Origin: Protula sp. h YS-2021
Taxonomy: Eukaryota; Annelida; Polychaeta; Sabellida; Serpulidae
DNA: 64,000 nucleotides
Direction: 5' to 3'
Assembly: GCA_949752745.1 (NCBI GenBank)
Contig: OX457031.1
Location: 27,420,882-27,484,881, forward strand
Positions 3,969 to 56,757 of this stretch are shown piece by piece (positions within the stretch are counted from its first letter, which is position 1; each line of letters opens with the position of its first letter). Both the position numbers and the translations under genes were made by a program. The notes beneath the pieces were generated by a model. The model saw nothing but the letters and a program-made list of their open reading frames with translations. It was not told the origin of the DNA and searched no databases.

Positions 3969-4245
3969 CTAGAGCCTTGGTGAGGCAGAATCCCCCGTGT
4001 AACAGGACATTAAATACCTGCTACATTTTGCCTAAAAAAAAAGTTCATAACAGCATATTTTTCAACCTTGCACCAATTGTTCCTTTTTTAATATTTTTCA
4101 AAAATAATCTGACGCTGCACATGTACAATTGATGGTCTGTTTATGAGTACAACATAAAATGCTTCGGAGATATCGCGCGAACAAAAGTGCGGACAGACAG
4201 ACGGACAAGTTCATAACTATATCCCCCCCTTACACGGGCGATATT
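3969..4245 (+). mobile_element. Family D element, short copy D1
   Basis: Starts CTAGAGCCTTGGTGAGGC (GCCT/AGGC can pair), followed by the subterminal motif ATCCCCCGTGTAAC. It ends with a (ACAG/ACGG) tail and the hairpin made of TATCCCCCCC and CACGGGCGATA. At under 300 bp it carries a single core unit, a minimal version of the D architecture. Confidence 0.65.
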
Positions 4246-4598
4246 AACCTGCCGTTGCACAGCTTCACTATATATACTTTCTCTCTGTAAGGTTTGGTTT
4301 GCTTCCGATAAAAATTTACAGAGATATCGCGCGAGCAAATTTAATAAGTCCAAAAAATGCAAAATCGTCGAAATTTTCACATTTTTTTACAAAATCGAAA
4401 AATAACCTGCCGTTGCACAAACTCACTATACATACTTTCTTCCTGTAACATTTGGTTTGCTTCCGATAAATGGTAACAGAGATATCGCGCGAACAAAACT
4501 GAGAAGTCCAAAAATGCAAAATCGTCGAAAACTTTCACATTTTTTTACAAAATCGAAAAATAACCTGCCGTTGCACAACTTCACTATGCATGACCCCT
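4246..4598 (+). repeat. Tandem core units of about 158 bp
   Basis: Two and a half units containing CCGTTGCACAACTTCACTATA, GGTTTGCTTCCGATAAA and GAGATATCGCGCGA; the last motif recurs at 4321 and 4479. The same motifs end D1 just upstream, so this is D-type core sequence. It is fused at about 4,590 (CACTATGCATGACCCC) to a family A core. Confidence 0.65.
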
Positions 4599-4779
4599 CA
4601 GGAATACCCCATACCAAAAATAAATGACATCGGATCAAAACTGTGGGAGGAAATGCATTTTGAAACAAAGTTTACTAAATAAACAACTAATTAACTAACT
4701 AACTAACGAACGAACGGACGCAACCCGCAAACCGATAGGAATACCCCAGCTGACGTATAACGTAAGCTGCGCTAAAAAG
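4599..4779 (+). mobile_element. Family A 3' end with intact hairpin; empty site for family I
   Basis: One J-type core unit (CATACCAAAAATAAATGACA, then AGGAAATGCATTTTGAA) leads to TTTACTAAATAAACAACTAA at 4,671-4,690, an (ACTA/ACGA)n run, ACCGATAGGAATACCCC and the 3' hairpin. In the hairpin CAGCTGACGT pairs with ACGTAAGCTG around ATA at 4,747-4,769, followed by CGCTAAAAAG. The same sequence at 22,620-23,245 is interrupted by a family I element precisely within TTTACTAAA/TAAACAAC, so this locus is the unoccupied version. Confidence 0.7.
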
Positions 4780-5338
4780 GAAGATGATGAACAACAAACA
4801 AAGAAAAATAGTTTGCATAGGCTCAAGTAGTTTCAGTTTATGAATCAGCGTTTAGGGTTACAATTTAGCAACACGTTCCATTATGTGGAGAAATTACATC
4901 AAAACGCGAAGTTTTACCAAAATTCAAAATACTGTCATTTTTGCTACATTTTATGAATCCGAACAAAAATACTACTTTGCACACCTGCAATATGCGTTAT
5001 TTCCTTGTGTGAAATTTCAAAACATTAGGAGATCTAGCCTGGACACAACGGCGGAAATTTCAATGGCGTCGAACAGTTCAATACGCGAGAAATACTCTCA
5101 CTGACAATTTCTCATAAATCCTAAGAAAAATACACCGTTGCACACCTTCAATATGTGCTTCATACCGTGAAATTTTACAACAATCCGACCTATACTTTCA
5201 CAGATATAGTCCGGACACGATTTTACTTTTCTAGGTTTTACCAAATTTCAAAATACTACATTCTAATTTGAAATGTGTTACCATGCGTGTCCAAAAAAAA
5301 CAAGGTTATTTCAGAATTTTTCTCCTCGTTTGGTTAAA
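4780..5338 (+). repeat. K-type core units, partial element
   Basis: About two units with TTTGCACACCTGCAATATG or TTGCACACCTTCAATATG, GTGAAATTTCAAAAC and a GATCTAGCCTGGACACAAC-like block. They match the units at 51,530-52,290. No clear 5' or 3' terminus is visible here. Confidence 0.5.
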
Positions 5339-5695
5339 CAAGGATGTACAGGGACATTATGACCAGCCGAACAAAAAGTGGTAGTCATAGTTTCAAAAAA
5401 GTCTACTAAAACTGAAAATTGGTACAACATTTTAAAGGAGTACGGTCAAAATTGTCGGATAAGAAACCTTTTGAAAACTGGCTACTTTTTTTCAATCAAC
5501 CCCCCCCCCCCCCTCCCATTTAGCCAATTTACCATTCGACAAAAATTTATCTTTACAGAGGACCGCCTAGTAAACATTCATGCAAAATTTGAAGGCAATC
5601 CGATCAAAATTGTGGAAGAAAAAAACCTTTGGAAAACTGGCTACCAAAACCTTTTTAAGCTCCCATTTAGACAGTTTTCGGTGGATCGACAAAAA

Positions 5696-6168: not shown

Positions 6169-7016
6169 AAGAAAATTCTTAAGACAGAACCATCTCGGGA
6201 ACAATCAGTCACAATCGGAAAGAAATGCCATCCAAATTGTAGTAGAAGAAGGATTTTGAAAATTGGCTACCAATAAATTCAAAAATGCCCCCCCCCCCCC
6301 CAATTGGTCAATTTTTGATGGGTCGCCAAAAAAAGTAATCTTTCGAGACAGGCGTGTGAGCAAAAGTTTGCGCAAAATTTAAAGACAACTCCATCAAAAT
6401 TGTGCGAGAACAAATACTCTGAAAATTAGCAACCAAGAAAGTTTACATGCCTCCCATTTAACTAATTATTGGCGGAATACCAAAACAAGAATATCCAGAG
6501 ACATTGTGACCAGCCAAGATCTAGTGAATCAAGTATCAAAAACCTTGTATAGTCGCCAAAGTGGTAGTCAAAGTTGAACAACCGGTCACTGGAAATTTTT
6601 CAACGGCGGAAATTTGCCTAATCTCTGGCGGCTCTAAAAATAAGTAAATTTCTAGGAGCCCTAACGTTGGACTAGGCCTGAAAATATGAAAGCCAGGTGA
6701 CTAAAATTACTGGCAGAAGAACTTTACTGAAAAAACTTGATCCCAAACTATTCAAACGCTATAGATGATCCAAAACAACCCAATCAAACTGCAGCAGGCA
6801 ACGCAGTTGGAAAACAAAAAGATTTCAAACGCCGCTAATTGACCTTTTTTTTGGAGAATCGCAAAAAAAAGTAATTTTTGTAAGGAAAACATCCAGGGAA
6901 AACTCGCATAAACTTTTGGGGAAACCGGTCTAAATTGTGGGAGAAGCATATTAAAAATTGGCTACTTAAGTTTTCCAACTGTTCCCTATTTAGCTAAATT
7001 TTGGCGAATTGCCAAA

Positions 7017-7725
7017 CAAGCATGTCCAAGGACATGACCCAGCCGAGTATACTGCTAGGCCAAAAAATGAAGTATGTAAAATGCATTTAATTCTGATTTG
7101 GAATCTATCCGAAAAGGGATGCTGGAGAGGTTGGGTTTTGACGATTCACGTATTTACCGACATTTACACAACTTTACCAAAAAAAAAAAAAAATTCAATT
7201 TCGGCATTTTTTTGTCATTTGCGAAAAAAGTCCAGGTGGAGAAGTACCTAAGAAACTTTCGATTAAAATTTTAAAACTAGTTGAAAAAGACCGAGAGAAT
7301 GAATGGTTTGACAATTCAGTCATTTACTACCATTTATTCCAGTTTTTGCCAAACTTCAAAGTTCTGCCATTTCTGCAGTTTTTGGCGAATCGCAAAAAAT
7401 AAATAATGGCCTGATAGGCGAACCCTGGGGAACATCCCTGTGTAACATCTAAACGGTTGCTGTAAAACTGTAGGTGAAGCATTTTAAAAATGGATCAAAA
7501 CAAGCACATAAAGTGCCGCCATTTTGTCAGTTTTTCGTCAGTCGTCAAAAAAAGTAATAGCCAAGTGGGGGACCACCCAGGGAACATTCCTGCGTAATAT
7601 CAATACGAATCGAGCAAAACTGTAGGAGGACTAGCATTTAAAAGAAAAAGTTTAACATACGCACATACATTCAAGCCCCTATAGTGATACAACTAACCCA
7701 GTCCAACAAAGTCGGTCGGGTTAAA
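7017..7725 (+). mobile_element. Family C element (C1) inside B core
   Basis: 5' end CAAGCATGTCCAAGGACATG (hairpin CATGTCC/GGACATG), then ACCCAGCCGAG. The 3' end is AACCCAGTCC, AACAAA, GTCGGTCGGGTT, then AAAAAG, a decayed version of the C2 hairpin. The interior has core units around GAGAGGTTGGGTTTTGACG and TGTCATTTGCGAAAAAAG. The flanks rejoin to B core (GGCGAATTGCCAAA, then AGTTACTTTTTAAAAGAGGG), which supports insertion at the GCCAAAA site. Confidence 0.65.
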
Positions 7726-8789
7726 AAGTTACTTTTTAAAAGAGGGCGCCCTATTGAGCATAATACAAAATTTGAAAGTCATCCGATCAAAACTGTTTTA
7801 GAAAACGCTTTTTGAACTGGCAACCCAAAATTCCAAATGCTCCCCTTTTAACCACTTTTAGCTGGCTAGCCAAAAAAACGTCATTTTCAAGAGAGGCCAG
7901 CCTAGTGAACATTTGTGCAAAATTTCAAGGCAACGAAATCAAAGAAATTTTTTGTAAAAAATTCGCAACAAACAATTTTAAAATGCCCCGTTTGGCCAAT
8001 TTTTGGCGTATCGCCAAAAAGGCAAACTTTTCAAGAGGACCGCCTGGTAAAATTTTTTGCAAATTTCAAGGCAATTCGATCAAAATTCTGGAAGAAGCAT
8101 TTAGAAAATTGGCTACCAAAAAAATTATAAATGCCCCCATTTGGCTAATTTTTGCTAAAATAGACAACCATCTAAGGAACAATAAAAAAAAATAACACGC
8201 ATGCCCAGGGACATTGTGACACGCCGAGATCTAGTGAGTCAAGTATCAAAAGGCTTGTATAGTTGCCAAAAAGTGGCAGACATCTCAAAAAAGTAAAGTT
8301 CTAGGAGCACTAACGTTGGACTCGGGCTAGAAAGTGAAGACAATCTGACTGAAATTACTTGCGAAGAACTATTTTGGAAAACTTGATGCGAAAAACATAA
8401 AAACGTCGGCGCGAGGCAAATTTCTGAAGGTGCGCAAAAAATGTTTTACATTGCATACTTAAGTTTTCTAAATATCCCCTATTTAGCCAATTTTTGGGGT
8501 ATAGCCAAGAAAGTAACTTTTGAAAAGGGGACCGCCTAGCAAACGAACACTTATGCAAAATTTGAAAGCAATCCGATCAAAGTTGTAGCAGAAAAAGCAC
8601 ATGGAAAGTTTGCTACATTAGTAAAAAAAAAGCCCCCCCCCCCCCCCCGTTAGCCAGTTTTTGGTGGACCGCCAAAAAAAAAAGTCACTTTGCAAGACAG
8701 GGCAGACTAGTGAACATTTACGCAAATACTGAACGCAATCAAATCAAAATTCTCTTCAAGAGGGCTACACAGAGCACACTCGTACCAAA

Positions 8790-10208
8790 CTAGATGCTGT
8801 CAGAGAGCAGCAATATCCCCCGTGAAACCCTAAATATTACCCCTATGCAATATCTAAGCTGGACACCCTTCCTTGAAGTCCACTCCGTTTGCATATATGT
8901 CGATTTATGACGATTTTTAAAAGCCTGTCATTTTGTCAATTTTGCTTCGATCAAACTGAAACCTTGACGTTGCACATCTTTATACCCTATATGTTGCCTA
9001 TATGAAATATGAAAGCTGAATTATGCTTCGTTGATATAGAAGTGGTGTCCACAAAGTCCTATACATGTGCACATATGTCTATTTTCGACGATTTTCAAAA
9101 GCCTGTCAATTTGTCAATTTTGCTTCGATCAAACTGAAACCTTAACGTTGCACATCTTTATACCCTATATTTTGCCTATATGAAATATGAAAGCTGAATT
9201 ATGCTTCGTTGATATAGAAGTGGTGTCCACAAAGTCCTATACATGTGCACATATGTCTATTTTCGACGATTTTCAAAAGCCTGTCAATTTGTCAATTTTG
9301 CTTCGATCAAACTGAAACCTTGACGTTGCACATCTTTATACCCTATATTTTGCCTGTATGAAATATGAAAGCTGAATTATGCTTCGTTGATATAGAAGTG
9401 GTGTCCACAAAGTCCTATACATGTGCACATATGTCTATTTTCGACGATTTTCAAAAGCCTGTCAATTTGTCAATTTTGCTTCGATCAAACTGAAACCTTG
9501 ACGTTGCACATCTTTATACCCTATATTTTGCCTGTATGAAATATGAAAGCTGAATTATGCTTCGTTGATATAGAAGTGGTGTCCACAAAGTCCTATACAT
9601 GTGCACATATGTCTATTTTCGACGATTTTCAAAAGCCTGTCAATTTGTCAATTTTGCTTCGATCAAACTGAAACCTTGACGTTGCACATCTTTATTCCCT
9701 ATATTTTGCCTGTATGGAATATGAAAGCTGAATTATGCTTCGTTGATATAGAAGTGGTGTCCACAAAGTCCTATACATGTGCACATATGTCTATTTTCGA
9801 CGATTTTCAAAAGCCTGTCAATTTGTCAATTTTGCTTCGATCAAACTGAAACCTTGACGTTGCACATCTTTATACCCTATATTTTGCCTGTATGAAATAT
9901 GAAAGCTGAATTATGCTTCGTTGATATTGAAGTGGTGTCCACAAAGTCCTATACATGTGCACATATGTCTATTTTCGACGATTTTCAAAAGCCTGTCAAT
10001 TTGTCAATTTTGCTTCGATCAAACTGAAACCTTGACGTTGCACATCTTTATACCCTATATTTTGCCTGTATGAAATATGAAAGCTGAATTATGCTTCGTT
10101 GATATAGAAGTGGTGTCCACAAAGTCCTTAGCTTGAAGAGGGGACGGACGGACGGACGGACGGACGGACAATCTCAAACCTATATCCCTCCGTTTCACGG
10201 GGGATAAT
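8790..10208 (+). mobile_element. Family D element with seven-unit core (D2)
   Basis: Starts CTAGATGCTGTCAGAGAGCA and has subterminal TATCCCCCGTGAAAC (8,814-8,828). It ends with (GGAC)n at about 10,142-10,170 and a hairpin in which TATCCCTCCGT pairs with ACGGGGGATA around TTC (10,183-10,206). The flanks are B core: GAGCACACTCGTACCAAA on the left and TTAGAAAAGAATCAGATTAA on the right, matching consensus CGTACAAAA/TTTGAAAGGAATCCGATC. The inserted segment sits between A and T with no visible target duplication. It is the clearest full-length element of the window. Confidence 0.8.
8884..10130 (+). repeat. 178-bp tandem repeat, seven units
   Basis: TGCTTCGATC starts at 8943, 9121, 9299, 9477, 9655, 9833 and 10011, exactly 178 bp apart each time. 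The units are nearly identical, so amplification was recent or homogenised. Each unit has CGTTGCACATCTTTATACCC and GTGGTGTCCACAAAGTCCTA. The array forms the core of D2. Confidence 0.97.
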
Positions 10209-13424: not shown

Positions 13425-14224
13425 CAAGAATATCCAGGGACATTCTGACAAGCCGAGATCTAGCGAATCAAGTATCAATAGTTTATATTGTCGCCCAAAA
13501 GTGGTGGTCATTTTAACAGGAATGTCCAGGGTCACTGTGACCAGCCGAGGTCCAGTGACTCAATTATCAATAACCTTGTATGATCACCAAAAATCGGCAG
13601 TTATATTTCATACACCGGTTGATGAAAATTCGTACACAATTTTACAGTAATCCATTCAAAATTGGCTACTAAATTGTTTTATGAATGCCCCCGCTTGGCC
13701 TATTTTTTGCGGAACGCCTAAAATTCAACATTTCACGAGAGGACCCCCTAACGAACACTAACGCAAAATTTGAAGACAAACAGATCAAAATTGTGGGAGA
13801 CAAAGCATGTTGAAAACTGGCAACAAACAAAAAATGAAAGCGCCCCGTTTAGACAACATTTGGTGGATCACCAAAACAAAAGGTAATTTTCAAGAGAGGA
13901 CAGCCTAGTGAACATTTATGCAAAATTTGACGGCAGTCCTATCCAAATTGTTTGGGGGGGGGGAACCTTTAAAAAATTTGTTACCAAAAAAAATTGCAAT
14001 GAACCCATGTGGCCAATTTTTGGTGGATCGCCAAAAAAGTATTTTTTCGGACCGCCTAGGGAATATTTATGCAATATTTGAAGGCAATTCAATCAATCTA
14101 ACCTGTGGGGAAAAAAACCTTTGGAAAATCAAACAAGAATGTCCAGGGACATTGTGACCAGCAGAGATCTGGTGAATCTATGAATTAGCGTGTATATTTG
14201 CCAAAAAGTGGTAGTCACACTGTA
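13425..14224 (+). repeat. Three successive family B 5' ends with core fragments
   Basis: B 5' ends start near 13,425 (CAAGAATATCCAGGGACATT), 13,519 (CAGGAATGTCCAGGGTCACT) and 14,130 (CAAGAATGTCCAGGGACATT). Each is followed by GACCAGCCGAG-type motif, and the later ones lie inside B sequence. Core units fill 13,640-14,125 and include a G9-type run at about 13,955-13,963. Confidence 0.6.
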
Positions 14225-15145
14225 CAAGTTTGTCCAAGGACAAAGTCCCAGCTTACGAAAAGCGATAAGACCAATTCCAGCGTGCATGAACAAGGAGACT
14301 TCCCTGAAAAAAATGGGCTTCAAAAGACGAGATGGCAACGACCTAGCTAAATAGTTAATTTAGCAACGGACCCGAACATAGACCGATAAATACATGAAGA
14401 GATTTGTTTCCCACAAAAATCGGAAACAGATCTTGCGTTTCTCTGGTAGACTGGGTAATCTACCAGGGATACCTTCGAACAACGTATCGAAATTGCATGC
14501 ACACACGTGTACTGTTGACATGTACTGTGGGATATAAACAATTATTTCAAGGAGCAGAAACGACCAGTGAATGGTGATATGACCAAACACACGTGATTGC
14601 GTTTGCGTTTGAATTTGAGAAGAAGAAAACGCCGTGTCTAAGACACTCTTAAGTTTTAATGTTTTGGTATGTATTACTTTGCGGGGTTTGCATTGCGAAC
14701 CAGTGCCCATGTTTATTTAACTTCCATTGATGTGCGGTTTGCATTTCGGACCAGTGCGCATATGTTTATTTAACTTGGTGTCGATGCGCGGTTTTTCTTT
14801 AGGACAAATGCGCATGATTACTTAACTTGTTTTGATGCGCAGTTTCCATTTCGGACCAGTCCGCCTATTTATTTAGCTTGTGTTGATGCGCGTTTCACTT
14901 TTCGGACCAGTGCGCATGTTTACTTAACGTGCACTGATGCGCGGTTCGCATTTCGGACCATGCGCATGTTTGTTTAGCTTGTATTGATGCGCGTTTCACT
15001 TTTCGAACCAGTGCGCATGTTTATTTAATTTGCGTTGATGCGCCGTTCTTATTTTAAACCGGTTCGCATTTCGAACGGTGGGCATGTTTATTTAACTTGT
15101 TTCGATGCGTGGTCCGCATTTCGGACAAATGCCCATGGTTTATTC
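14225..15145 (+). mobile_element. Family A element, 5' end plus 51-bp array (A2)
   Basis: Starts CAAGTTTGTCCAAGGACAAA, where TTGTCC pairs with GGACAA, then CCCAGCTTACG (14,247-14,257). It lies about 95 bp inside a B element, right after its GGTAGTCACACTGTA. The first 180 bp match 2,929-3,110; the middle is unrelated to A1; then the 51-bp array runs to about 15,145. There it is fused directly to B core (TTTTTTGGCGGATCGCC), so the 3' part of A is missing. Confidence 0.65.
14690..15140. repeat. 51-bp minisatellite, second array
   Basis: About eight to nine diverged units on GCATTTCGGACCAGTGCGCA and TTTATTTAACTTG, in the same orientation as the arrays at 3,366-3,667 and 17,803-18,020. Confidence 0.8.
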
Positions 15146-17080
15146 AACTTCCATTTTTTGGCGGATCGCCAAAAACAAGTAGTTTTTCAAAAGGGGCCTA
15201 CCTAGAGAAGAGGCGACCAAAAAACTATAACTGCCCCCATTTGGCCATTGTTTTGGCGGTTCGCCAAAAAGATATAACTTTTCAAGAAAGGCTTATATAG
15301 AAAACAATGGTACAAAATAGGAACGCAATCCATAAAAGTTGTAAGAGAAGAAGCATTTTAAAAGGAGACACCAAAAAATAACAAAAATGCCCACAATTTG
15401 GCGGATTGTCAAAAAAGTAAATTTTTAAACAAGGACCACGGTAGGGATAGTCAAAATTTAAAGAAAATCCGATCAAAATTGTTCGAGAAGAACCATTTTG
15501 AAAATTGGCGGCAAAAAAATTTAAATGACCCCCACTTAACCAATTTTTGGCGGATCGTCAAAAAAGTACATTTTTCAAGACAGGCCTACCTTGAAAATAA
15601 CTGTTCAAAATTAGAAAGGAATCAGATCAAAATTGTAGAAGCATTTTGAAAACTAGACACCAAAAAATTAAAAAAAAAAAACCATTTAGACAATTTTTGG
15701 CGGATCGCGAAAAATAAGTAATTTTTCAAAAGAGGCATACCTAGAAAAAGTTCGTACAAAATTTGAAAAAAAATCTTATCAAAATTATGGGAGAAGAAGC
15801 ATTTTAAAAATTGACAACCAAAAAATTTTAAATGCCCCCCACTTAGCCAATTTTTGGCCGACCGCCAAAAAAGAATAATTTTTAAAGAGAGGCCTATCTA
15901 GAGAACATTCGTATAAAATTTGAGAAGGACCGATCAAAACTGAAGGAGAAGCATTTTAAGTAAAAGTTTATACATACACACATACATACGTACATACAGA
16001 CGACGGATGCCCCTCTATTGATGCGATAAGATAAGGCCTCTATGACCTCTATTTGACCAGTTTTTGATGGATCGTCAGAAGTTCAAGACAGGCCTAAGCA
16101 GTAAGTATTCGTACAAAATTTAAACGGAATGCTATCCAAATTGTGGAGTAGAAGTAAAACCTCCATTACTGAACACCTCCCAATAGTGAGCACCTTCTAT
16201 AATGGACGAGTTGTCTCTGTCCCAGATTCTATCAATCGATTTTTCACAATTTACGTTATCATACGTTATTTTTTGCTTTAGAAACTTTTTTGCCCTAATT
16301 TCATTTGGGGACCTTATGGCTGGGGACGTTTTGTGTTAAATTCTATTACGACAAATCATTATATCCGAAATGGTGTGCACATCGCACAATTGCTAGGTCC
16401 AACGTACTTTTTGGCAATTTTTTCCGCTTTTGTCAGCTTTTCACCGATTTCAAAAATAATACGACGGCGCACATCTGAAATATATGCATTTTCACTGTGA
16501 AAGGTCGCAGGTCAGTACGACAAATAGCTATATGCGAAGAAGTGCGGACAAAACATGACACAATTGCTAAGTCCAAAGTAATTTCTGGAAAATTTTGACA
16601 AGTTGTCATTTCGTCAATTTTTAACAGATTTCAAAAATAGTAGGACGATGCACATCTACAAATTATACAAACGGACACGCTCATAACTATATATCTCGTT
16701 CACACGGGGATACACATTATAAATGCCCCCATTTGGCAAAATTTTGGCGAATCGACAAAAAATGTAAATCTTCAAAAGAGAAGCATCTGGAGAACAATCG
16801 TACAAAATTGAACAGAAATCCCATCCTAATTGTGGGAGAAGAATTCTGAATTGGCTGTTAAATATTTTTAAATGCCCCTCCCCCGCCTCCCCCCCCCCCC
16901 CCCCCCCTAGTTAGACACTTTTTTGGCGGATGTTCAAAAGCATTTTGAAAATTGGCTACCTAAAAATTATAAATGCCCCTATTTCGCCAATTTTTGGCGG
17001 ATCGCAAAAAAGGTAATTTTTCACGAGAGGCCTACGTAAAGAACATTCGTACAAAATATGAAAGGAATCTGAAGAAAACT
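15146..17080 (+). repeat. Family B cores with an embedded D-type module
   Basis: Core units of about 155 bp run to 15,960. A decayed B 3' end follows (ACATACGTACATACAGACGA, GGATGCCCCTC) near 15,970-16,035. More core leads to the pogo-like block at 16,153-16,250 and D-type cores ending in TATCTCGTTCACACGGGGATA at about 16,689-16,710, then B core again up to D4. The run of C near 16,887-16,906 is at the usual core position. Confidence 0.6.
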
Positions 17081-17802
17081 AGAGCCTCAGTACGGCAGGA
17101 TCCCCCGTGAAGCAGTAAAGTAAAATGCACGTAAAAGTTACAGGTAAAAATTAACGATTTTTGACAGCTTTCCTAACTTGAATTTTTGGCAGATCTTCAA
17201 AATAATAACTTCAATTTATGTATTTCAACAAACGTCGAATGCAGAAATGTAACTATCACACAGTAACGGTCACACAAACATCGTGTCACGGCTAAGTTAA
17301 CGCAAAAAATTCACAAATTTTGGCAATTTCCCACGACGTCAATTTTTCCCCATTTTGACGATAATGCCACGCTGCACATCTTCAATATATATATATATTC
17401 ACCATGCAAGCTTTCAGGTTCCTATGACAATCCGTTCTATGAGAAGTCGGCTGGACAAAACATCGTCTCACGGCTAAGTTCAAGCCAAAAATTTACCATT
17501 TTTGACAATTTCCCACGACGCCAATTATTTCCCCATTTTGACGATAATGCCACGTTGCACATCTTCAATATATATATTTTTACCATGCAAGGTTTCACGT
17601 TCCTATGACAATCACTTCTATGAGAAGTCGGCCGGACAAAACATCGTCTCACGGTTAAGTTCAAGCCAAAAATTCGCCATTTTCGACAATTTCCCACGAC
17701 GTCAATTTTTGGCCGATTTTGACAATAATGCCACGTTGCACATCTTCAATATATATATTTTATCCATGTAAGGTTTCAGGTTCCTATGAAAATCACTTCT
17801 AT
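17081..17802 (+). mobile_element. Family D element, 3'-truncated (D4)
   Basis: Starts CTAGAGCCTCAGTACGGC and the motif ATCCCCCGTGAAGC, inserted in B core after GGAATCTGAAGAAA. Tandem units of 180-182 bp follow, marked by TCACGGCTAAGTT at about 17,286 and 17,468 and TCACGGTTAAGTT at 17,650. Each unit has CACGTTGCACATCTTCAATA and CCATGCAAGGTTTCA. The last unit stops at about 17,802, where the 51-bp array of family A begins. No 3' hairpin is present. Confidence 0.65.
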
Positions 17803-18407
17803 GTTTATTTAACTTGTGTTAATGTGGGCTGCTTATTTTGGACCAGTGCGCATGTTTACTTAATTTGCGTTGATGCGCGGTTCTTATTTTAGAAAAGTGG
17901 GCATGTTGATGTAACTTGTGTTGATGCGCATTTCGCATTTTGGACCAGTGCGCAAGTTTGGTTAACGTGCGTTGATGCGCGGTTTCCATTTCGGACCAGG
18001 GCCCATGTTTATTTAACAAAAATTCCGAGAAAAGTTTTTCAATTAACTCAAAAGGCACAAGCCGTATGCATGACTAACTAGAAGGCTCATACCAAACATA
18101 AATGACATCTGATAAAAATTGTAGGAGGAAATGCATTTTTAATTTTTTCTTCAAAAATTCCCCCAAAATACCCTAATCGACTCTAAAAACACAAGCCGTA
18201 ATCAAGAGCCCATGAGCATGCCTCACACCCAAAATAAATGATTTCTGATCAAAACTGTAGCAGAAGATGCATTTTGAGGTATTTTCTTAAAAAATCCCCA
18301 ACCCAAAAAAAAAAAAAAAGAAATTCCCAAATCGAGCAAAAAAGCATCAGCCACATGCCCAACCTTCCTAGCGATGCCTCATACTAAAAACAAATGAAAT
18401 CGGATAA

Positions 18408-20837
18408 CAAGCATGTCCAGGGACATGGTGACCAGCCGTGACCTACAGAATATATATCCAAGCATCACAGACAAAATCATGATCAAATTCGCAGACAGCG
18501 GTTACGAAAAAAGCCGTAACTGAATGGAGAAAATATTCGCTCACTTGATCGGTGTAGTTGTGGCTGATGAGGAGTCATTCTTTCAATTCTTTCATAAGGG
18601 GAAAAAATTAAAAAATGCCCCCCATTTGGCCAATATTTGGCGGATCGCCAAAATTAGTCATTTTTCAAACGAGGCCTACCTAGGGAGTATTCGTGCAAAA
18701 TTTGAAGAAAATCTGATCAAAATTGTGGGAGAAGAAGCATTTTGAAAATTGGCAACCACAAAATCACAAATGTCCCCCATTTAGCCAATTTTAGGCGGAT
18801 CACCAAAAAGAGCAAATTTTCAAGAGAGGTCTACCCAGAGAACAAGTATCAAAAATCGGAAAAGAATCCGATCAAAATTGTGGGAGAAAAAGGAATTTGA
18901 AAATTTGACACCAAAAAATTAAAAAATGTCCCCCATTTAGCCAATTTTTAACGGATCGCCAAATTGAGTAATTTTTCAAAAGAGGCCTACCTAGGGAATA
19001 TTCGTGCAAAATTTGAAGAAAATCTGACCAAAATTGTGGGAGAAGAAGCATTTTGAAAATTGGCAACCACAAAATTACAAATGTCCCCCATTTAGCCAAT
19101 TTTTGGCGGATCGCCAAAAAGAGTAATTTTTCAAGAGAGGTCTACCCAGAGAAGAACTAATCAAAATTGGAAAAGAATCCGATCAAAATTGTGGGAGAAG
19201 AAGCAATTTGAAAATTTGACACCAAAAAATTAAAAAATGTCCCCCATTTGGCCAATTTTTGGCGGATCGCAAAAACGAGTAATTTTTCAAAAGAAGTTAA
19301 CCTAGGGAATATTCGTGCAAAATTTGAAAAAAATCTGATCAAAATTGTGGGAGTAGAAGCATTTTGAAAATTGGCAACCACAAAATTACAAATGTCCCCC
19401 ATTTGGCCAATTTTTGGCGGATCACCCAAAAAAGTAATTTTTCAAGAGACATCTACCTTGAGAACAACTATCAACAATTGAAAAAGAATCCGATCAAAAT
19501 TGTGCGAGAAGAAGCAATTTGAAAATTGTAAACCAAAAAATTTGAAAATGTCCCCCATTTCGCCAATTTTTGGCGAATCGACAAAATACGTTATTTTTCA
19601 AAAGAGGTCTACCTAGGGAATATGGGTGCAAAATTTGTAAACAATCTGATCAAAATTGTGGGAGAAAAAGCATTTTGAAAATTAGCAGCCACAAAATCAC
19701 AAATGTCCCCCATTTGGCCAATTTTTGGCGGATCACCCAAAAAAGTAATTTTTCAAGAGACATCTACCTTGAGAACAACTATCAACAATTGAAAAAGAAT
19801 CCGATCAAAATTGTGCGAGAAGAAGCAATTTGAAAATTGTAAACCAAAAAATTTGAAAATGTCCCCCATTTCGCCAATTTTTGGCGAATCGACAAAATAC
19901 GTTATTTTTCAAAAGAGGTCTACCTAGGAAATATGGGTGCAAAATTTGTAAACAATCTGATCAAAATTGTGGGAGAAAAAGCATTTTGAAAATTAGCAGC
20001 CACAAAATCACAAATGTCCCCCATTTGGCCAATTTTTGGCGGATCGCCAAAAAAAGTAATTTTTCAAGAGAGGTCTACCTTGAGAACAAACAACAAAAAC
20101 TGAAAAGGGATCCGATTAAAATTGTGCGAGAAGAAGCAATTGAAAATTTGACACCAAAAAATTAAAAAATGTCCCCCATTTAGCCAATTTTTGGCGGATC
20201 GCCAAATTGAGTAATTTTTCAAAAGAGGCCTACCTAGGGAGTATTCGTGCAAATTTGAAGAAAATCTGACCAAAATTGTGGGAGAAGAAGCATTTTGAAA
20301 ATTGGCAACCACAAAATTAAAATTACAATTACAAAGAGTAATTTTTCAAGAGAGGTCTACCTAGAGAACAACTATCCAAAATTGGAAAGGAATCCGATCA
20401 AAATTGGCAATTAGAAGAAGCAATTTGAAAATTTGACACCAAAAAATTAAAAAATGTCCCCCATTTGGCCAATTTTTGGCGGATCGCTAAAATGAGTAAT
20501 TTTTCAAAAGAGGCCTACCTAGGGAATATTCGTGCAAAATTTGAAGAAAATCTGATCAAAATTGTGGGAGAAGAAGCATTTTGAAAATTGGCAACCGAAA
20601 AAATTCAAATGTCCCCCATTTAGCCAATTTTTGGCGGATCGCCAAAAAAAAATAATTTTTAAAGAGAGGCCTACCTAGAGAACATTCGTGTATAATTTGA
20701 GAGGAATCCGATCAAAACTGAAGGAGAAGAAGCATTTTAAGTAAAAGTTTACACACGTACATACACACATACATACGGACGACGGATACCCCTCTATTGA
20801 TAAGATAAGACCAGCCCGACATAGTCGGCTGGTCTAA
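18408..20837 (+). mobile_element. Full-length family B element (B3) inside A3
   Basis: 5' end CAAGCATGTCCAGGGACATG (hairpin) and GTGACCAGCCG. The core has about 13 units of 155/156 bp. Then come an (ACAT)n tail, GACGGATACCCC and the hairpin in which AGACCAGCCCGAC pairs with GTCGGCTGGTCT around ATA (20,808-20,835), ending in AAAAA. The flanks rejoin to one J unit: AAATGAAATCGGATAA on the left, GTGTAGGAGGAAATGC on the right. The 5' motif GACCAGCCG and the 3' CGGCTGGTC are exact reverse complements. Confidence 0.8.
18641..20720 (+). repeat. 155/156-bp units alternating as a 311-bp dimer
   Basis: The CGGA/CGAA landmark lies at 18641, 18796, 18952, 19107, 19263, 19418, 19574, 19729, 19885, 20040 and 20195, so spacings alternate 155 and 156. 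Two unit types alternate: one with CTACCTAGGGAATATTCGTG, the other with CTACCTAGAGAACAACTATC. 19,421-19,731 and 19,732-20,042 are nearly identical 311-bp blocks. One unit near 20,330 is partly deleted. Confidence 0.9.
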
Positions 20838-21794
20838 AAAGTGTAGGAGGAAATGCATTCTGAATTTTTTTCCTTTAAAAATTCCCCAAAATCCCATGAT
20901 CGACTCAAAAAGCACAAGTCGTATTCAAGAGCCCCTAAGCATGCCTCACACCGAAAATAAATGATATCTTATCAAAACTTTAGCAGAAGATGCAGTTTGA
21001 GGTATTTTCTTCAAAAATCCCACCCCCCCAAAAAAAAATCAGAAATCCCAAACGAGTCAAAAAGCATGAGTCATGCGCCCGACCCATCTAGCAATGCTTC
21101 ATACCAAAAAAAATCGGATAACAACTGTAGGAGGAAATGCATTTTGAAGCTTTTTCTTCAAAAATTTCCCAAAAATTTAAAAACCACCCGATCGACGAAA
21201 AAAGCAGAAGCCGTATGTATGACCACTTAGCGACACCTCAAACCAAAATAAATGAAATCGGTTAAAACTGTACGGGGAATTGCATTTTGAATTATCTTTG
21301 AAATTTTTTCTTCAAAAATTCCCCCAAAACACGAAAAAATGCCCGATCGACTGAAACAGCACAAGCCGTATGCACGACCCCTTAGGGATGCCTCATACCA
21401 AAAACAAAGACATCAGATCAAAAATGTAGAAGATACATTTCAAAAGTTGTTCCTCAAAAATTCCCCCAAAATTAAAAAAGCACCCGATCAACAAAAAAAG
21501 CAGAAACCGTACGCAAGACTCTATAGGGACACCTCATACCAAAAATAAATAACATTAGATCACAAATGTAGGAGGAGACACATTTTGAATTATTTTTGAT
21601 TTTTTTTCCTCCAAAATTTCCCAAAAATAGAAAAATTGTCTGACCGACTAAAAAACACAAGCCGTATGCATGACTCCTTTGGAGTGCCCAATGCTAAAAA
21701 TAAATCAAATCAAAATCAGATCAAAAATGTAGGAGAAAATACATTTTTTTCTTCAAGGATTCCCCCAAAATTCAAAAATCATCCGATCGACTAA

Positions 21795-22531
21795 CAAGCA
21801 TGTCCAAGAACATGACCCAGCCGAGTTACAAACAAGGAAAGAGAGGAAAACTGAAACGAATACCGTTAGGCTAAAAAATGAATTATGTAAAATGCATTTA
21901 ACTTGAATTTGGAAGCTTCCCGAAAAGGGATGTTGGAGAGGTTGAGTTTTTACGATTCACGTATTTACCGACATTTACACAATTTTACAAAAAAATTTAA
22001 AATTCCACCATTTCGGCATTCTTTGTCATTTGCGAAAAAAGCAAAGTCCAGGTGGAAAGAAACTTTCAATTAAAATTTTATAACTATTTGAAAAAGACTG
22101 AGAGAAATGGTTTGACAATTCGGTTATTTACTACCATTCATTCCAGTTTTTCCCAAATTTCAAAATTCCGCCATTTCGACAGTTTTTGGCGAACCGCGAA
22201 AAAAAATAATAGACAGGTAGGCGAACCCCTGGGGAACACCCTGCATAATATTGAAACGATTGGTTTAAAACTGTAGGAGAAGTAGCATTTTAAAAATGGG
22301 TCAACGGGCACAAAAAGTGCCGCCATTTTGCAGTTTTTCGCCAATCGTCAAAAAAATAATAGCCAATTGGGGGAGCACCCAGGAAACATTCCTGCGTAAT
22401 ATCAAAACAATTGGCGCAAAACTGTAGGAGGAGTAGCATTTTAAAGAAAAAGTTTAACATACGCATATACATTATTCAATCCCCCCATAGTGATACGACT
22501 AACCCAGTCCGACAAAGTCGACTGGGCTATA
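21795..22531 (+). mobile_element. Full-length family C element (C2) inside A3
   Basis: 5' end CAAGCATGTCCAAGAACATG and ACCCAGCCGAG. The interior includes GAGAGGTTGAGTTTTTACG, TGTCATTTGCGAAAAAAGC and two ~165-bp units with a GGCGAACC...GGGGAAC block. 3' hairpin: AACCCAGTCCGAC pairs with GTCGACTGGGCT around AAA (22,501-22,527). The flanks rejoin to the J unit (ATCCGATCGACTAA / AAAGCACAAACCGTATGC). It is closely related to C1. Confidence 0.75.
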
Positions 22532-22638
22532 AAAGCACAAACCGTATGCATGACTTCTTAGGGCTGCCTCATACCAAAAATAAATGACATCGGATCAAAA
22601 TTGTAGGAGGAGATGCATTTTGAAACAAAGGTTTACTA

Positions 22639-23235
22639 AACAAGCTATCTTCGAAGGCGCAGACCCCAACCGGGCACAAAGAGTCGCCATTTTGGCAATT
22701 TTTTGGCAACTTCAATATATACATATTCACGGCAAGGCAGCATATGCCTGGGATTAATATTTTTGGAGAACTCTCGTGGAAAGCACCCAAGTCTTACATT
22801 GGAGTTATCTTAACAAATCATAATTTTTGACAAATCGCCATTTTGGCAATTTTTGGCAAATTTAAAAAATACCACAACGTTGCACAACTTCATTATATAT
22901 ATTTTCACTGTACAAGGTTGCATATGCCTAGGGTAAATAATTTCGGAGAACTAGCGTGGAAACCACCTAAATCTTACATTACAGTTATCTAAAAAATTCG
23001 CAATTTTTGACAAGTCGCCATTTTGACAATTTTTTACCGATTTGAAAAAATAACACAACGTTGCACAACTTCAATATATATACTTGCACTGTGCAAGGTT
23101 GCATATGACTAGGGTAAATAGTTTCGGAGAACTTGCGTGGAAACAAAACAGCATCCAAAGTGTGACACACGGACGGATGGACGGACAGAGGGCAATCCCA
23201 TGGATCCCCCCTCCACCCCAGTTGGGGTCAAATAA
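22639..23235 (+). mobile_element. Full-length family I element (I1) inside A3
   Basis: 5' end CAAGCTATCTTCGAAGGCG (CTTCGAAG palindrome), motif GACCCCAACC at 22,662. Cores of about 184 bp carry CGTTGCACAACTTCAATATA, TTGCATATGACTAGGGTAAA and TTTCGGAGAACT. The tail is CGGACGGATGGACGGACAG. In the 3' hairpin ACCCC pairs with GGGGT around AGTT (23,213-23,226), then CAAATAA. The 5' GACCCCAAC is the complement of the 3' GTTGGGGTC. The same site is empty at 4,671-4,690. Confidence 0.8.
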
Positions 23236-23306
23236 ACAACTAACGGACGCCATTTGAAAACCGATAGGAATACCCAATCTTACGTGTAACGTAAGCTGGG
23301 CTAAAA

Positions 23307-27853: not shown

Positions 27854-27855
27854 AA

Positions 27856-30313: not shown

Positions 30314-30598
30314 CTAGAGCAGTGTGCAAGCCCACATATTCCCCACAGGCCCCACATCAGTTAAACACGGCCATCAATAGTTGAAAATTTCGAAGTCCAG
30401 CTAGTCCATTTTCCTTGGACGAACCTGGCCCATTTACAATACCGATCTGTCTTTGTTCCCATAGAAGCTACATACCAAGTTTCATTAAAATCCTGGAGTT
30501 TTTAAGTTAGCGTGTTAACAAGCTCTTGATGACAGACCGACCGATAGACCGACAGACACACGCGGTCGATTGCATATATTCCCCATTGTGGGGAATAA
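30314..30598 (+). mobile_element. Full-length family E element (E1), single unit
   Basis: Starts CTAGAGCAGTGTGCAAGCC after AAAAA, motif ATATTCCCCACA (30,336-30,347), one core, then a GACCGACCGATAGACCGAC tail. In the 3' hairpin TATTCCCCA pairs with TGGGGAATA around TTG (30,577-30,597), then A. The same 285-bp structure recurs at 35,436-35,704, which gives both ends independently. Confidence 0.75.
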
Positions 30599-31331: not shown

Positions 31332-31394
<63 letters not shown>

Positions 31395-31501
31395 TGACGT
31401 TATTTTCACTTTCTAAAAACTAATTAAACATATCAGAATATTTGGACTGATCGACAATTTTCTAAATACTGGACGTTCAATCTCCAACAAAATGACAAAA
31501 A
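30599..31501. other. Unique stretch with G-rich tracts and an ATT microsatellite
   Basis: A run of G lies at about 30,639-30,650. A G-quadruplex-capable tract at 30,850-30,878 has blocks of GGGG and GGGAGGGAGGG. (ATT)n is at 31,332-31,394. No coding frame is supported. Confidence 0.5.
31332..31394. repeat. (ATT)n microsatellite
   Basis: About 21 uninterrupted TTA/ATT triplets. Confidence 0.98.
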
Positions 31502-34040: not shown

Positions 34041-35435
34041 AGTTAATCTGATCCAAATTAGGGGTGTGGAACCATGCTCAAAACTGTTAATAAAAAAATT
34101 ACACATGCCTCTCATTTAGCTTATTCTTGGCGGATCGACAAAAAAACTTTCAACACAGAATTATCAAGAGAACAATCATTCATAATTAGAAAGAAATCCG
34201 ATGATGAAATGTGGAAAAGAGACAATTTAAAAATTGGTTACTAAATATTTTTGAAGTGCCCCCACCCTCACAAGTAACTGTTGAAGATAGAACAGTGAAC
34301 ACTTATGCCAAATTTGAAGCCAATCAGATCAAAATTGTGGGAAAACCTTTGGAAAATTGGCTATCAAAAAAATTTAAAATTTCCCTATTCAGCCAGTTTT
34401 TGACCTATCGCATACAAACAATTCAAGAGGTCTATCAAGTAAACACTCGTACAAACTTTGAAAGAAAGTCGATTCAAATTGTGGTAGTAGCAGCATTTTG
34501 AAAATTGGCTATCATTATAAATTATAAATGGCCATTTTTGGCGGCTCAAAAAAAAAAAGCAATTTTTCAACCTAGGGAACAACCGTTTAAAATTGGAGTA
34601 AAATCCGATCCACATTGTGTGAAATTGGCTAACGACAAATTAAAAAAATGCCTCCCACTTAGTCAATTTTTGCCGGAACGCTAAAAAAAAGTAATTTTTC
34701 AAAAGAGGCCTTTCTAATAAACATTTATGCAAAATTTCAAGACAACGGGATCAAAATGTGGGAGAAGAGGCATTTGCCGGAATTTTATAAGAACTTTTGC
34801 CGGAACGCTAAAAAGTATTTTTCAAGACATAGCCGTCTGGGGAACAATCGTTCAAAATTGGAAAGAAATTCGATCCAAAATGTGGGAGAAGAAGCATTTT
34901 GAAAATTGGCAACCGAAAAATTTTAAATGGCTCCTATTGGGCCAATTTTTGGCGGATCGCCAAAACATTTTTTCAAAAGAGGTTATCCTAGTAAACATTG
35001 ATGCAAAATTTCAAGACAATCAGATCAAAATTGTGGAAGAAGAAGCATTTTGAAAATTGGCTACCAAAAAATTATAAATGCCAAACTTGGCCAATTTTCT
35101 GCGGATCGCCAAAAGAAGTAATTTTTTTTTAAGAGAGACCTTACAAAATATGAAATAATCCGATCAAAACAAAGAGAAAACTCATTTTTAAAAAGTTTAC
35201 ATACGCACATGCAGACGACGGATACCCTCTCGAGTCTCTAGTGATGTGATAAGTCCAGCCCGACAAAGTAGGCTGTGTAAAAACTAGTCTAAAAACTTGA
35301 AAACGAGCTCACAGTGCAAAGGACTGTTTTCAACATTTATGCACAAAATATTCAATTTGGGTGTGGTACCTTTACTGGTTTCTAATACAGCTGGCTCAGT
35401 CAAAGCATCTATTCCATTGTTCCAGCAAATAAAAA

Positions 35436-35704
35436 CTAGAGCAGTGTGCAAGCCCACATATTCCCCACAGCTCCCCCCCCCATCAGTTAATCAATAGTCA
35501 ATCAACAGCTGAAATTTTCCTTGGACGAACCTGGCCCATTACCAATACCGATCTGTGTTCGTTCCCATAGAAGCTACATACCAAGTTTCAGTAAAATCCT
35601 TGCAGGAGTTTTTAAGTTATCGTGTCAACAAGCTCTTGATGACAGGCCGACCGACAGACCGACAGACACGCGGTCGATCGCATATATACCCTGTTGGGAA
35701 TAAA
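35436..35704 (+). mobile_element. Family E element, copy 2 (E2)
   Basis: Starts CTAGAGCAGTGTGCAAGCC and ATATTCCCCACAG, has the same core as E1 with a small deletion, tail GACCGACAGACCGACAGAC, and a decayed 3' hairpin (TATACCC/GGGAATA). The flanks are AAAAA and TAATGG. Confidence 0.7.
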
Positions 35705-39640: not shown

Positions 39641-39649
39641 ACTTGTCCA

Positions 39650-44865: not shown

Positions 44866-45774
44866 GTAACAGCAACTATGGAAACAACGCAAAAACAACG
44901 AAACAACAACAACAACGCAACAGCATCACAACAACGCAACAATAACAGCACAACAACGGATTAACAACAACAATGCAACTACAACAACGCAACAACAACA
45001 CAAGTTATCAGTGACACTGATGAATGTCCTCTGCCACGAAATATGGTCGAATCGCAAAATAATGCAATAAAACATTGCTATTTTCAACAAGTCGCCATTT
45101 CGTCGTTTTTTGGTCGAATCGAAAAATAATGCGACGTCGCACAACTTCAATATATATATTTTCACTGTAGCAGAAATCAAAAGCCAGGGTTTAACAGCGG
45201 CTGAGATATCGCGTGCACAAACTTGTGCTTCCAAGTGTCGCCAGACGGACAGACGGACGGACAGACAGACGGATCGACAGACCCGAATACTATAGTCCCC
45301 CGCTCCGCGGCGGCGGGGGACTAACAACGCAACAACAACGCAACAAAAACGCAACAACCCAACAGCAACAACAAAAACAACGCACCAGCAACAATGCAAC
45401 AACAACGCAACAACAATGCCACAACAATTCAGCAACACAACGTGAAAACAATGCAACAACAACACAACAAATATACCGCAACAAGACAAGAAAGCAACAA
45501 CACAATAACAACGCAACAACACAACAGCAACAACAACGCAAAGACAACGCAACAACAATAACGCAACAACACAACAATAACACAACAATAACACAACAAC
45601 ACAACAATAACACAACAACAACACAACAATAACACAACAATAACGCAACAACACAATAACGCAACAATAACAGCACAACAAGACAACAACGCAACTACAA
45701 CTGATCAACAACCCAACTACAACAACGCAACAACACAATAACAACGCAGCAACACAACAACAACGCAACAACAA
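44866..45774. repeat. CAA-rich spacer of the palindrome
   Basis: (CAA)n/(CAACG)n sequence such as AACAACAACGCAACAACAAC fills 44,866-45,000 and 45,325-45,774. The long minus-strand frames rich in leucine, cysteine and valine are artefacts of this composition. Both arms meet it at (TATA)n runs next to TCGACACTCAAAGACTTTTT or its complement. Confidence 0.9.
45001..45324 (+). mobile_element. Full-length family F element (F2) in the CAA spacer
   Basis: Starts CAAGTTATCAGTGACACTGA (ATCAGTG pairs with CACTGAT), motif TGTCCTCTGCCACG, one core, tail CGGACAGACGGACGGACAGA. In the 3' hairpin TAGTCCCCCGC pairs perfectly with GCGGGGGACTA (45,293-45,323), then A. The pure CAA flanks make both ends unambiguous to within a few bases. 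Confidence 0.8.
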
Positions 45775-53902: not shown

Positions 53903-53903
53903 A

Positions 53904-54966
53904 CTAGACCCACAGTAAGGCAGCATCCCCCACGAAGCAGTAAAAGTAAATGCATGAGAAAGCTACAGGTAAAAATCAACGATTTTTGACAGCTATACTC
54001 ACGTGAATTGGCAGATTTTCAAAATAACAACTTCAATTTAAATATTTATCACACACTTTGAATAATCCTTAAAACACCAAAATGAGCAACGTTTCCTGAA
54101 ACGCCACCGCATTTCATTTTTTTTCTTAAATAGGCATTAATTACAGACCATACGTAAATCGCAACATTACATAATAGTCAGATGTATTTCTGAAACAAAC
54201 GTCGAATGCAGAAATGTAAATACCAAAACAAAAATATCGTCTCACGGCTAAGTTGAAGCTAAAAATTCACCATTTCTATAATTTCCCACGACGTCAAGTT
54301 TTGGCCGATTTTGACAATAATGCCACGTTGCACATCTTCAATTTATATATATTAACCATGCAAGGTTTCAGGTTCCTAAGACAATCACTTCTATGAGAAG
54401 TGGGCCGGACAAAACGTCGTCAAGCCAAAAATTTACCATATTTGACAATTTCAACGACCTCAATTTTTGGCCGATTTTGACAATAATGCCACCTTGCACA
54501 TCTTCAATACATATATATTCACCATGCAAGGTTTCAGGTTCCTATGACAATCCCTTCTATATATAAGAAGTCGGCCGGACAAAACAGTTTCACAGCTAAG
54601 TTCAAGCCAAAAATTCACAATTTTTAACAATTTCCCCCAACGCCAATTTTTGGCCGATTTTGACAATGATGCCACGTTGCACATCTTCAATATATATATT
54701 TTCACCACGCAAGGTTTCACGTTCGAACGACAATTCCTTCTATGAAAAGTCGGCCGTGCAAAACATCGTCTCACGGCTAAGTTCAAGCAAAAATTCACAA
54801 ATTTTAACAATTTCCCACGACGTCAATTTTTGGCCGAGTTTGACAATAATGTCACGTCGCATATCTTCAATATATATATTTTCACCATGCAAGGTTTCAG
54901 GTTTCTATGAAAAGTCGGCCGGACAAAACATAGTCTCACGGCTAAGTTCAAGCCAAAAATTCTTCT
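53904..54966 (+). mobile_element. Family D element, 3'-truncated (D6)
   Basis: Starts CTAGACCCACAGTAAGGC and ATCCCCCACGAAGC, inserted in C core after GACCGAGAGAAA. About four ~180-bp units resemble D4 (GCCACGTTGCACATCTTCAA, CACCATGCAAGGTTTCA, AAGTCGGCCGGACAAAAC). It ends abruptly at about 54,966, next to the X repeat. Confidence 0.65.
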
Positions 54967-54979
54967 GACAGTAATTCCT

Positions 54980-56063
54980 ACCACTTTTATTTTGTATCAC
55001 TCGGTCGCAATCTGTCCAAGCCCGAGGGTTTCAGTGGACATGTGAAGGAACGTCTTTATATCTCCGCAGATTATGTGCCCATTGCCCAATCAAAGCTCTG
55101 TAGCTTTATGATGTGCAAAATTGGCATTCAGCAGATACGCGAATGATTTTCAACTGGAAACTCCGGCCAACAGTTAGAAATCGTACCTTTATGCAAGCCA
55201 CCTGGCTCGCCCGGCATATTGGGTAGTACGAGGCAGTACAAAGAATCCAAAACTGTCCAGGGAAGAGGTCTCGGCTGGGTTACTGGCATCTGCATGTCTG
55301 GCCTGCTGGCGGTTGGGTCTGCGGTTGGTTGTCTCTGCTAACCCTGTCGCAGATTTGCGGCTAGTTGCCTGGCGACGTATGACGCTCTGACTTTCCATAG
55401 GTGATCATGGATACACACTCTATACACCACTGAAACACTGACCAAAACTGGTGATCACACATGTGAACCATCAATAACAAAAGAATACAAAACAGTGAAT
55501 ATTTTTATTTCTTCGGTTGAACATTACTTTTCTATATAAAGAGGGGAACAGCAAAGCTTTGCACAAGGAAAATTAAGGTAAAACATTTACACTTGAGTTC
55601 ATAAAAATAATTACTGTTTGAAAGAGATTATCGGTGTTGATTCATTACTTGCACTGATTTGGCCAAAGATACACACTTACATATTTCAAAGCGCAGTTGC
55701 TTATCAAAACAAAATGTTATCTGATTCAAATTTGCGATTAACTGGAATCTAGTTCGATCCATTTAATTCTCGTGTTGTTTTCAAATTTCACCTCAAATTG
55801 GGAAACCGAAATTAAAATCTTTATCTACACTTAATTGATATTATTAGATTAACATCGAACTGGAAAACATCGATTGGGCGTCGAATACTAGAGACACTTT
55901 CTAAAATTAACATTGAATTACTTCCAGCGACTCGTTTTGTCCTGTTTGGTTTGAAAGCATGCTTAAGGCTGAGAAATGATGGAGATGGCACTCGGTAGCA
56001 TGTGCGCTACCATGCGCATCAAAACGGGACGAGGTGTTCCGCAACCGCAATTCTTATACTGAA
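54980..56063 (+). repeat. X repeat, first direct copy
   Basis: Matches 56,860-57,925 in the same orientation and 61,497-62,470 in reverse. Marks are TTTTGTATCACTCGGT, TCTCCGCAGATTATGTGCCC, GCCACCTGGCTCGCCCGGCA and TGTTTGGTTTGAAAGCATGC. A minus-strand frame (HDHLWKSQSVIRRQATSRK) is partly open in several copies, but they share DNA ancestry and I recognise no protein. Confidence 0.85.
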
Positions 56064-56757
56064 CTAGAAATGTGTCCGTTGGAGCACATATAGCCCGCCT
56101 GCCTCCATTTGTCACACCCTTGAGAGAAGTTTTTTAGACATATTCTTCACAGAAGTTAATGACATAAAGCTCTACACGTGTGTATGTACTGAAAACGTGC
56201 ATTTTGAGCCTAAGTTCGGGCGACCCTTATGGACTGACGGACGAACCGACGCAGACACAAAGGAGAGGTACACAACTGTAACCCATAAGCTTTCAATCCA
56301 TACAGGTTTCAGGTTGATTAAAGCAAAAGCCTAGGACAAGTTCGGTCCACAAACTAGAAACTACGCTGATAGCCTTTCTGCCCCTAGGTTCAGAGGCCAC
56401 ACACGGACCGACGGAAAAACCGACGTCAGCCCCAAGAGGAGGTGCACAACTACGACCCATAAGCTTTCAATCCATATAGGTTTCAGGTTTATTGAAGCAA
56501 AACCCTAGGACAAGATCGGTCCACAAAACTTAAAAACTGCGCTAATAGCCGTTCTGCACCTAACTCGACACATATATGAAGTCACAACGGAGCCCAAATT
56601 TTTCTTTCACCAAAGTAGGCTTATTTTAGCAAAGAAACGCGTATATAGGCCTAATATGAAACTTTTGTCTTGAGTCACGCACGCACGCACACATAAGCAC
56701 AAGGGCAAATCAAAAACATAATAGCCCTTCCGACTATCCTCGCGCGGGCTATAAAAA
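56064..56757 (+). mobile_element. Full-length family G element (G1)
   Basis: Starts CTAGAAATGTGTCCGTTGG, where ATGTG and CACAT can pair (hairpin with GGAGCACAT), then TATAGCCCGCCTGCC. Two ~190-bp core units follow (GACGGACGAACCGACG, CATAAGCTTTCAATCCATA, CCTAGGACAAG), then ACGCACGCACGCACACATA. In the 3' hairpin ATAGCCC pairs with GGGCTAT (56,721-56,752), then AAAAA. Right flank TTTC. Confidence 0.75.

Follow-up and report, generated by a model that had tools for sequence, protein, structure and literature searches.

Paired end codes in nested non-autonomous Helentrons of a Protula genome, two of them shared with Rep-type elements of the same genome

We analysed a 64,000-nucleotide stretch of DNA from the serpulid annelid Protula sp. 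h YS-2021 (contig OX457031.1, forward-strand positions 27,420,882 to 27,484,881; G000:C8:27420882-27484881 of an 863-Mb genome), which as a whole is called the window below. The two subterminal inverted repeats (subTIRs) of one element match each other far beyond chance in the window, and two of its element families, D2 and H, share end sequence with Rep-type elements elsewhere in the genome. We consider it very probable that the window is filled with nested short non-autonomous Helentrons (HINEs) of the Helitron2 type, which have no genes and are mobilised by the Rep, helicase and endonuclease of autonomous Helentrons in the same genome. An initial annotation of the window, made from its letters without database searches, had already regarded the elements as Helentron-associated, and the ends that they share with the Rep-type elements support this.

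On the plus strand, one type of element end consists of AAC[AT]AG, a small palindrome and a family motif, and the other of a microsatellite followed by a hairpin, the right arm of which is the reverse complement of the motif. The initial annotation had named the first type 5' and the second 3'. As the elements coding for Rep, helicase and endonuclease run towards CTAGTT, these names have to be reversed, and the elements are described here in their true orientation, on the minus strand. An element comprises, in this order, a T, the 5' subTIR with its downstream complement, which make up the 5' hairpin, a (GTCC)n-type microsatellite, a tandem core, the 3' subTIR, a short palindrome, CTAGT or CTTGT, and a T. 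The inverse match between the subTIRs is exact over 9-15 nt in one copy each of families F, D1, D2, B, I, A, H, E and G, and is shorter or degraded in family C and in the remaining copies. The inverted repeat (IR) complementary to the 5' subTIR gave a predicted 5' hairpin in 10/10 copies folded. The left arm of the hairpin on the plus strand is often an imperfect copy, bulged in D2, H, B and C and degraded in I and A. The loop base of D-type hairpins is T in D1, A in D2, C in D3 and G in D4. In ten copies with a code, from families A, B, C, D2, F and H, the 3' palindrome has a perfect 5-7 bp stem adjoining AC[AT]AG, and a strict rule to this effect misses the copies of D1, E, G and I. The flanks of the elements look A-rich on the plus strand, the ends having been anchored partly on that base. 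Canonical Helitron1 elements are defined in PMC3627910 by the absence of a 5' hairpin and of asymmetric terminal inverted repeats (ATIRs), but here both the hairpin and ATIR-like matching ends are present. No Rfam family matched the window at the gathering threshold. The nine motif pairs listed in the initial annotation were all located, as were two bulged hairpin variants (TATCCCTCCGT at 10183 in D2 and TATCCGTCCGG at 28660 in H); the set, which had been thought to start at 3969, begins with an F element at 917. By the code criterion, 18 of the coded ends between 917 and 56753 are on the plus strand and 1 is on the minus strand. This bias may stem from the TT target of Helentrons, since an insertion nested in a T-rich element could adopt the orientation of its host element.

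The catalogue of ends in the window, picked by eye with the codes in view, contains 27 palindrome-type and 23 hairpin-type ends. They include 18 pairs with matching family labels that can be read as nested brackets; 9 of the 27 palindrome ends and 5 of the 23 hairpin ends remained unpartnered. In a label-free permutation test on 16 adjacent end pairs, the summed code match was 214, a value that none of 20,000 permutations reached (their mean was 161 and their maximum 205); the family labels agreed in 14 of the 16 pairs. The proposal of the initial annotation that the ends of a family are matched through the identity of their motif is supported. Automated detection of the ends was less powerful. 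A blind palindrome-end detector was weak (own score of at least 17 in 5/40 candidates vs 16/1560 swapped pairs) and, on 200 kb of random genome (20 stretches obtained out of 60 drawn), returned candidates mostly without a code match, and a strict detector of a microsatellite plus a hairpin recovered just 6 hairpin ends in the window. A code with AC[AT]AG upstream occurred 19 times in the window vs once in the same 200 kb, and reversed codes were absent from both, but this contrast is biased because the codes were picked from the window.

For the D group, the pairing extends beyond the window. Totals for the whole genome were 595 exact D2-type 3' ends, 223 exact D1-type 3' ends, 1719 exact D-group 5' hairpins and 530 H-type 5' hairpins with at most 2 mismatches, with 0 for the reversed-pattern controls. 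Positions were taken for the first 100 places of each pattern, and those of the D 5' hairpin cover 0-55.7 Mb of sequence C1. In this stretch, an exact D-type 5' hairpin was located no more than 8 kb upstream, in the same orientation, for 24/30 exact D2-type 3' ends, as compared with 0/30 on the wrong strand, 1/30 on the wrong side, and a chance expectation of less than 1% per end by simple arithmetic. Among the scored copies of family H, 8 on C1 included the 3' end, and for 6 of them an exact H 5' hairpin was located no more than 8 kb away. Three of the 8 fall in the stretch covered for D, and none of these 3 had a D 5' hairpin near it.

Matching ends could also be inherited from one master copy, without any selection for matching and without a code function beyond descent. 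In family H, the 40 copies scored of 1244 candidates, the window copy included, are 96-100% identical, and many span 748 of 836 bp, so that matched ends within a family are not independent evidence; D and H are separated by a single lineage split. We nevertheless regard this explanation as unlikely. The 3' copy matches the 5' subTIR in nine families that have different codes. Moreover, D and H differ at paired positions, with changes in both hairpin arms and in the 3' end: base pairs were exchanged between these related families, as the initial annotation had noted, while the hairpin, the bulge and the 3' copy were kept. Common descent leaves unexplained how two separate sites of one element remained copies of each other while the families diverged.

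A search of the genome with the PF14214 profile gave 27 matches, here called Rep loci. The initial annotation had suggested looking for an autonomous Rep element with these motifs at its ends, and two of the codes were found in this way, that of D2 at both ends of an element and that of H at a 3' end only. The Helentron at G000:C3:13392666-13401103 carries the D2 code at both ends: its 3' end is 100% identical to that of the D2 element of the window over 74 bp, and its 5' part, which has the hairpin, the microsatellite and the same 178-bp repeats, is 94-99.8% identical. A partial PF14214 match lies in L036:8165-8998, and PIF1 and Exo_endo_phos matches above the cut-off lie in L034:2-2965. The 5' end of this Helentron (hairpin, microsatellite and core repeat) is tandemly doubled, at 4168 and 4994 of L036. 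The second element, a Rep/endonuclease locus at 36.5 Mb of C6, shares 166/167 bp (99.4%) with family H at its 3' end; it has a Rep match and a Pif1_2B match above the cut-off, and an Exo_endo_phos match below it.

A third Helentron is present in copies at 41.6 Mb of C8 and 24.29 Mb of C2, with open reading frames of 2347 and 2339 aa. In the stretches compared, which on C2 flank a central part of ~6 kb, the two are 99.8% identical up to a sharp edge after CTAGTT. The upstream part of the C2 copy contains a TTTT-TGGAAGGCCAGC...GCTGGCCTTCC hairpin, and the first 10 nt of TGGAAGGCCAGC recur inverted near the CTAGTT edge. Helitron_like_N, PIF1 and Exo_endo_phos domains were found in the C8 copy; its 2347-aa reading frame (L029 6397-10000) also has Pfam matches to Herpes_teg_N and DUF6570, upstream of Rep. 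As this Helentron has another code, the codes differ between machineries. The initial annotation had imagined one mobilising machinery for all families, which does not agree with three Helentrons bearing three codes: in their helicase-endonuclease parts, the D2-type protein is 41% identical to the H-type protein over 402 residues and 29% identical to the C8 protein over 1036 residues. Two other Rep loci were considered as code sources and rejected. The one on C5 (L037) showed no clear 3' end of its own in the parts read, and the one at 76.4 Mb of C2 (L035) likewise had no clear 3' end of its own, its F-like end looking like a nested HINE.

The domains of these elements also bear on whether the elements of the window might be foldback transposons or miniature inverted-repeat transposable elements (MITEs) of cut-and-paste transposons. 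Such elements have short inverted repeats near both ends, as here, and bivalve Pearl elements were formerly termed MITEs, according to a passage of Vojvoda Zeljko et al. (2020, PMC7492417). However, the subTIRs are asymmetric, one of them forming a hairpin, and the coding elements with the same ends have Rep, PIF1 and endonuclease domains. In addition, the F element at 45000..45323 sits in a (AACAACGCAAC)n array that continues with AAC past it without a clear target duplication, although the array could hide a short one. The Rep-type domains together with the asymmetric ends led us to reject this assignment as highly improbable.

The strength of pairing between the ends was predicted with DNA energy parameters. 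The duplex between the two subTIRs of one element was stronger than the 5' hairpin in 9/10 copies, the exception being a decayed F copy; the values, in kcal/mol, were -20.1 vs -7.7 in D2, -16.5 vs -8.9 in H and -10.5 vs -8.8 in C. In a matrix of the codes, no 5' end of the nine HINE families had a better predicted partner than its own 3' end, and 0/100,000 permutations were as good, with D2 tied with the identical end of the C3 Helentron and C ahead by 0.1 kcal/mol only. These predictions fit the hypothesis that Bao and Jurka (2013, PMC3627910) put forward for Helitron2, in which base pairing between the ATIRs undoes the 5' hairpin and fixes where replication ends. It is conceivable, though we give it less than an even chance, that the hairpin alone is recognised and that no strands pair between the 5' and 3' ends, the 3' copy having arisen as a by-product or being bound separately. 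The 5' hairpins alone, after all, have predicted energies of -4 to -14 kcal/mol, and canonical Helitrons move with neither a 5' hairpin nor ATIRs, as stated in PMC3627910. Against this, the end match extends past the stem into the loop in D2 (15 nt) and E (11 nt), where it is not needed for recognition of a hairpin.

The reading that we prefer, that HINEs are mobilised by the Rep, helicase and endonuclease of autonomous Helentrons in the same genome, is suggested by the shared ends, and the subTIR would serve in it as a family address. The displaced strand would begin with the 5' hairpin. Once the 3' end had been copied, the 3' subTIR would pair with the 5' subTIR and open the weaker hairpin, and the paired subTIRs would keep the two ends in place to be cleaved and joined, a mechanism that Bao and Jurka (2013) proposed for Helitron2. 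More tentatively, the subTIR might be a transposase-specific address for strand pairing and the bulge-weakened 5' hairpin a latch that opens to no other 3' subTIR than the matching one. The families might then live side by side with little cross-mobilisation, and their codes might evolve by coupled changes at three places and in Rep.

A number of points weigh against this account. The binding of Rep to the ends, and its preference for the code of its own family, are presumed. Rep loci with a matching code correspond to 2/9 families, and for H to the 3' end only: no H-type 5' end was found in the 4 kb upstream of the C6 locus. In the C3 Helentron, the PF14214 match covers profile positions 143-191 only, and the coding region is spread over several frames in the assembly. 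The 5' boundary of the C8/C2 Helentron was deduced from structure and not from a comparison of copies; moreover, its own duplex is predicted to be no stronger than its hairpin (-14.1 vs -14.5 kcal/mol), and its 5' end would pair slightly better with the 3' end of family I (-15.1). None of these energies takes account of protein, topology or the bimolecular penalty. Of 14 exact D1-type 3' ends in the first 55.7 Mb of C1, only 2 had an exact D 5' hairpin no more than 8 kb away. The copies of the D1 family are diverged; when positions 3969-5000 of the window were compared with the genome, the 40 candidates that were scored, out of 5133, gave 107 matches. Finally, one candidate cross-pair of H and D2 was found among the 74 exact H-type 5' hairpins and 83 exact D2-type 3' ends listed on C1. 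At C1:55523028-55523869, on the minus strand, an H-type 5' hairpin lies 815 bp from a D2-type 3' end, and their surroundings contain no exact D 5' hairpin, though a diverged one may be present. This is possibly a chimeric element. A single candidate does not, at the same time, support the interchangeable codes that the initial annotation had spoken of.

Much of this anatomy is already in print in the sections of Thomas et al. (2014, PMC4067079), Vojvoda Zeljko et al. (2020) and Bao and Jurka (2013) on which we draw: the HINE structure, families defined by their subTIRs, the coexistence of several such families in a genome, compensatory changes and the hypothesis of end pairing. HINE families are defined in PMC4067079 by subTIRs that are identical over 11 bp or more, and autonomous Helentrons sharing their codes are known. 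As described there, HINE/DINE-1 elements resemble those of the window in having subTIRs at both ends, an IR partner of the 5' subTIR, a microsatellite, a 3' palindrome, in some cases a tandem core, and perhaps a TT target. They differ in their host, and in the window no fewer than nine codes occur nested in ~57 kb. The bulge on the IR arm in four families here (D2, H, B and C) may be a further difference.

The likeness to the Cg_HINE elements of Crassostrea gigas (PMC7492417) is also close: they comprise eleven elements with differing subTIRs, T-rich targets, satellite-like cores of 140-180 bp and GTCY/GTCC/GTCK microsatellites. The window itself is rich in tandem arrays, many with units near 140-180 bp, and contains GACA/GGAC-type microsatellites, a repeat style like that of the Helentron-derived repeats of bivalves in the same paper. 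The number of parallel families, which the initial annotation had singled out as unusual, has precedents in the 11 Cg_HINEs and in a mite with seven families and 21 subfamilies (cited passages of PMC7492417 and PMC4067079). In Helitron2, as portrayed in PMC3627910, the 5' ATIR lies within the 5' hairpin and the 3' ATIR immediately before the 3' hairpin, as in our elements. Compensatory changes were noted there for two related elements, whereas here we tested the matching across the families of the window by permutation and, for one group of families, by how close the ends lie to each other in the genome.

New here are the D2 code at both ends of the C3 Helentron and the 3' end of H at the C6 Rep locus. 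The Cg_HINEs, in contrast, are reported in the relevant part of PMC7492417 as not linkable to autonomous Helentrons, and two families are linked here by end sequence. According to the same paper, many satellite-like arrays of oysters reside in non-autonomous Helentrons, the drivers of which it could not name. Among the papers listed by our literature search, which had most subscription journals outside its reach, none was seen to link a HINE to an autonomous Helentron in a mollusc. Two code-matched Rep loci in one genome, together with hundreds of copies of matching ends, make a concrete system in which to study how Helentron ends are recognised, and one suited to asking whether the pairing of the ends determines the point at which rolling-circle transposition comes to a halt.

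The HINEs catalogued in the window are all on the minus strand. The first, F (917..1333; code GTCCCCCGCC), has its 3' palindrome end at 917 and its 5' hairpin end at 1289-1333. It is followed by a degraded A element (2928..4774), within which D1 (3968..4245; code ATCCCCCGTGTAA) is nested, its 5'-hairpin-like end preceding a 158-bp tandem array, and then by C (7016..7723; code ACCCAGCCGA), the hairpin of which is degraded. D2 (8788..10206; code TATCCCCCGTGAAAC) has the 15-nt end-to-end match, seven 178-bp repeats and a (GGAC)n microsatellite. The A element at 14224..23303 (code CCCAGCTTACG), of ~9 kb, is split by later insertions and contains complete B, C and I elements: B (18407..20836; code GACCAGCCG), with ~155-bp core repeats and a G bulge on the IR arm of its hairpin, a further copy of C (21794..22529), and I (22640..23229; code GACCCCAAC). 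Downstream lie a D-group element with degraded ends (25560..26031), H (27855..28683; code ATCCGCCGGG) and E (30313..30597; code TATTCCCCACA). A degraded B element (31501..35279) has an I element with a degraded code (32582..34037) nested within it, and a second copy of E (35435..35702) follows. The F element in the (AACAACGCAAC)n array (45000..45323) and G (56063..56753; code TATAGCCCGC), which has an inverted copy at ~62575-63280, complete the catalogue.

In copies of the D1 family (3968-4591 of the window, and L003, L006, L007 and L008), an altered 5'-hairpin-like sequence occurs early in the element, and better hairpins are found further into the elements in L006 and L007, as if the old 5' end of this family had possibly been bypassed and a new one used. 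The window also contains two large inverted duplications. In one (~38300-51500, including 39678-40964 and 49843-51124), 139-bp tandem arrays, GACGTC-rich repeats and flanking blocks occur in reversed order across a centre near 45.4 kb, which the F element adjoins. The other, at 55000-63500, contains two G elements in opposite orientation.

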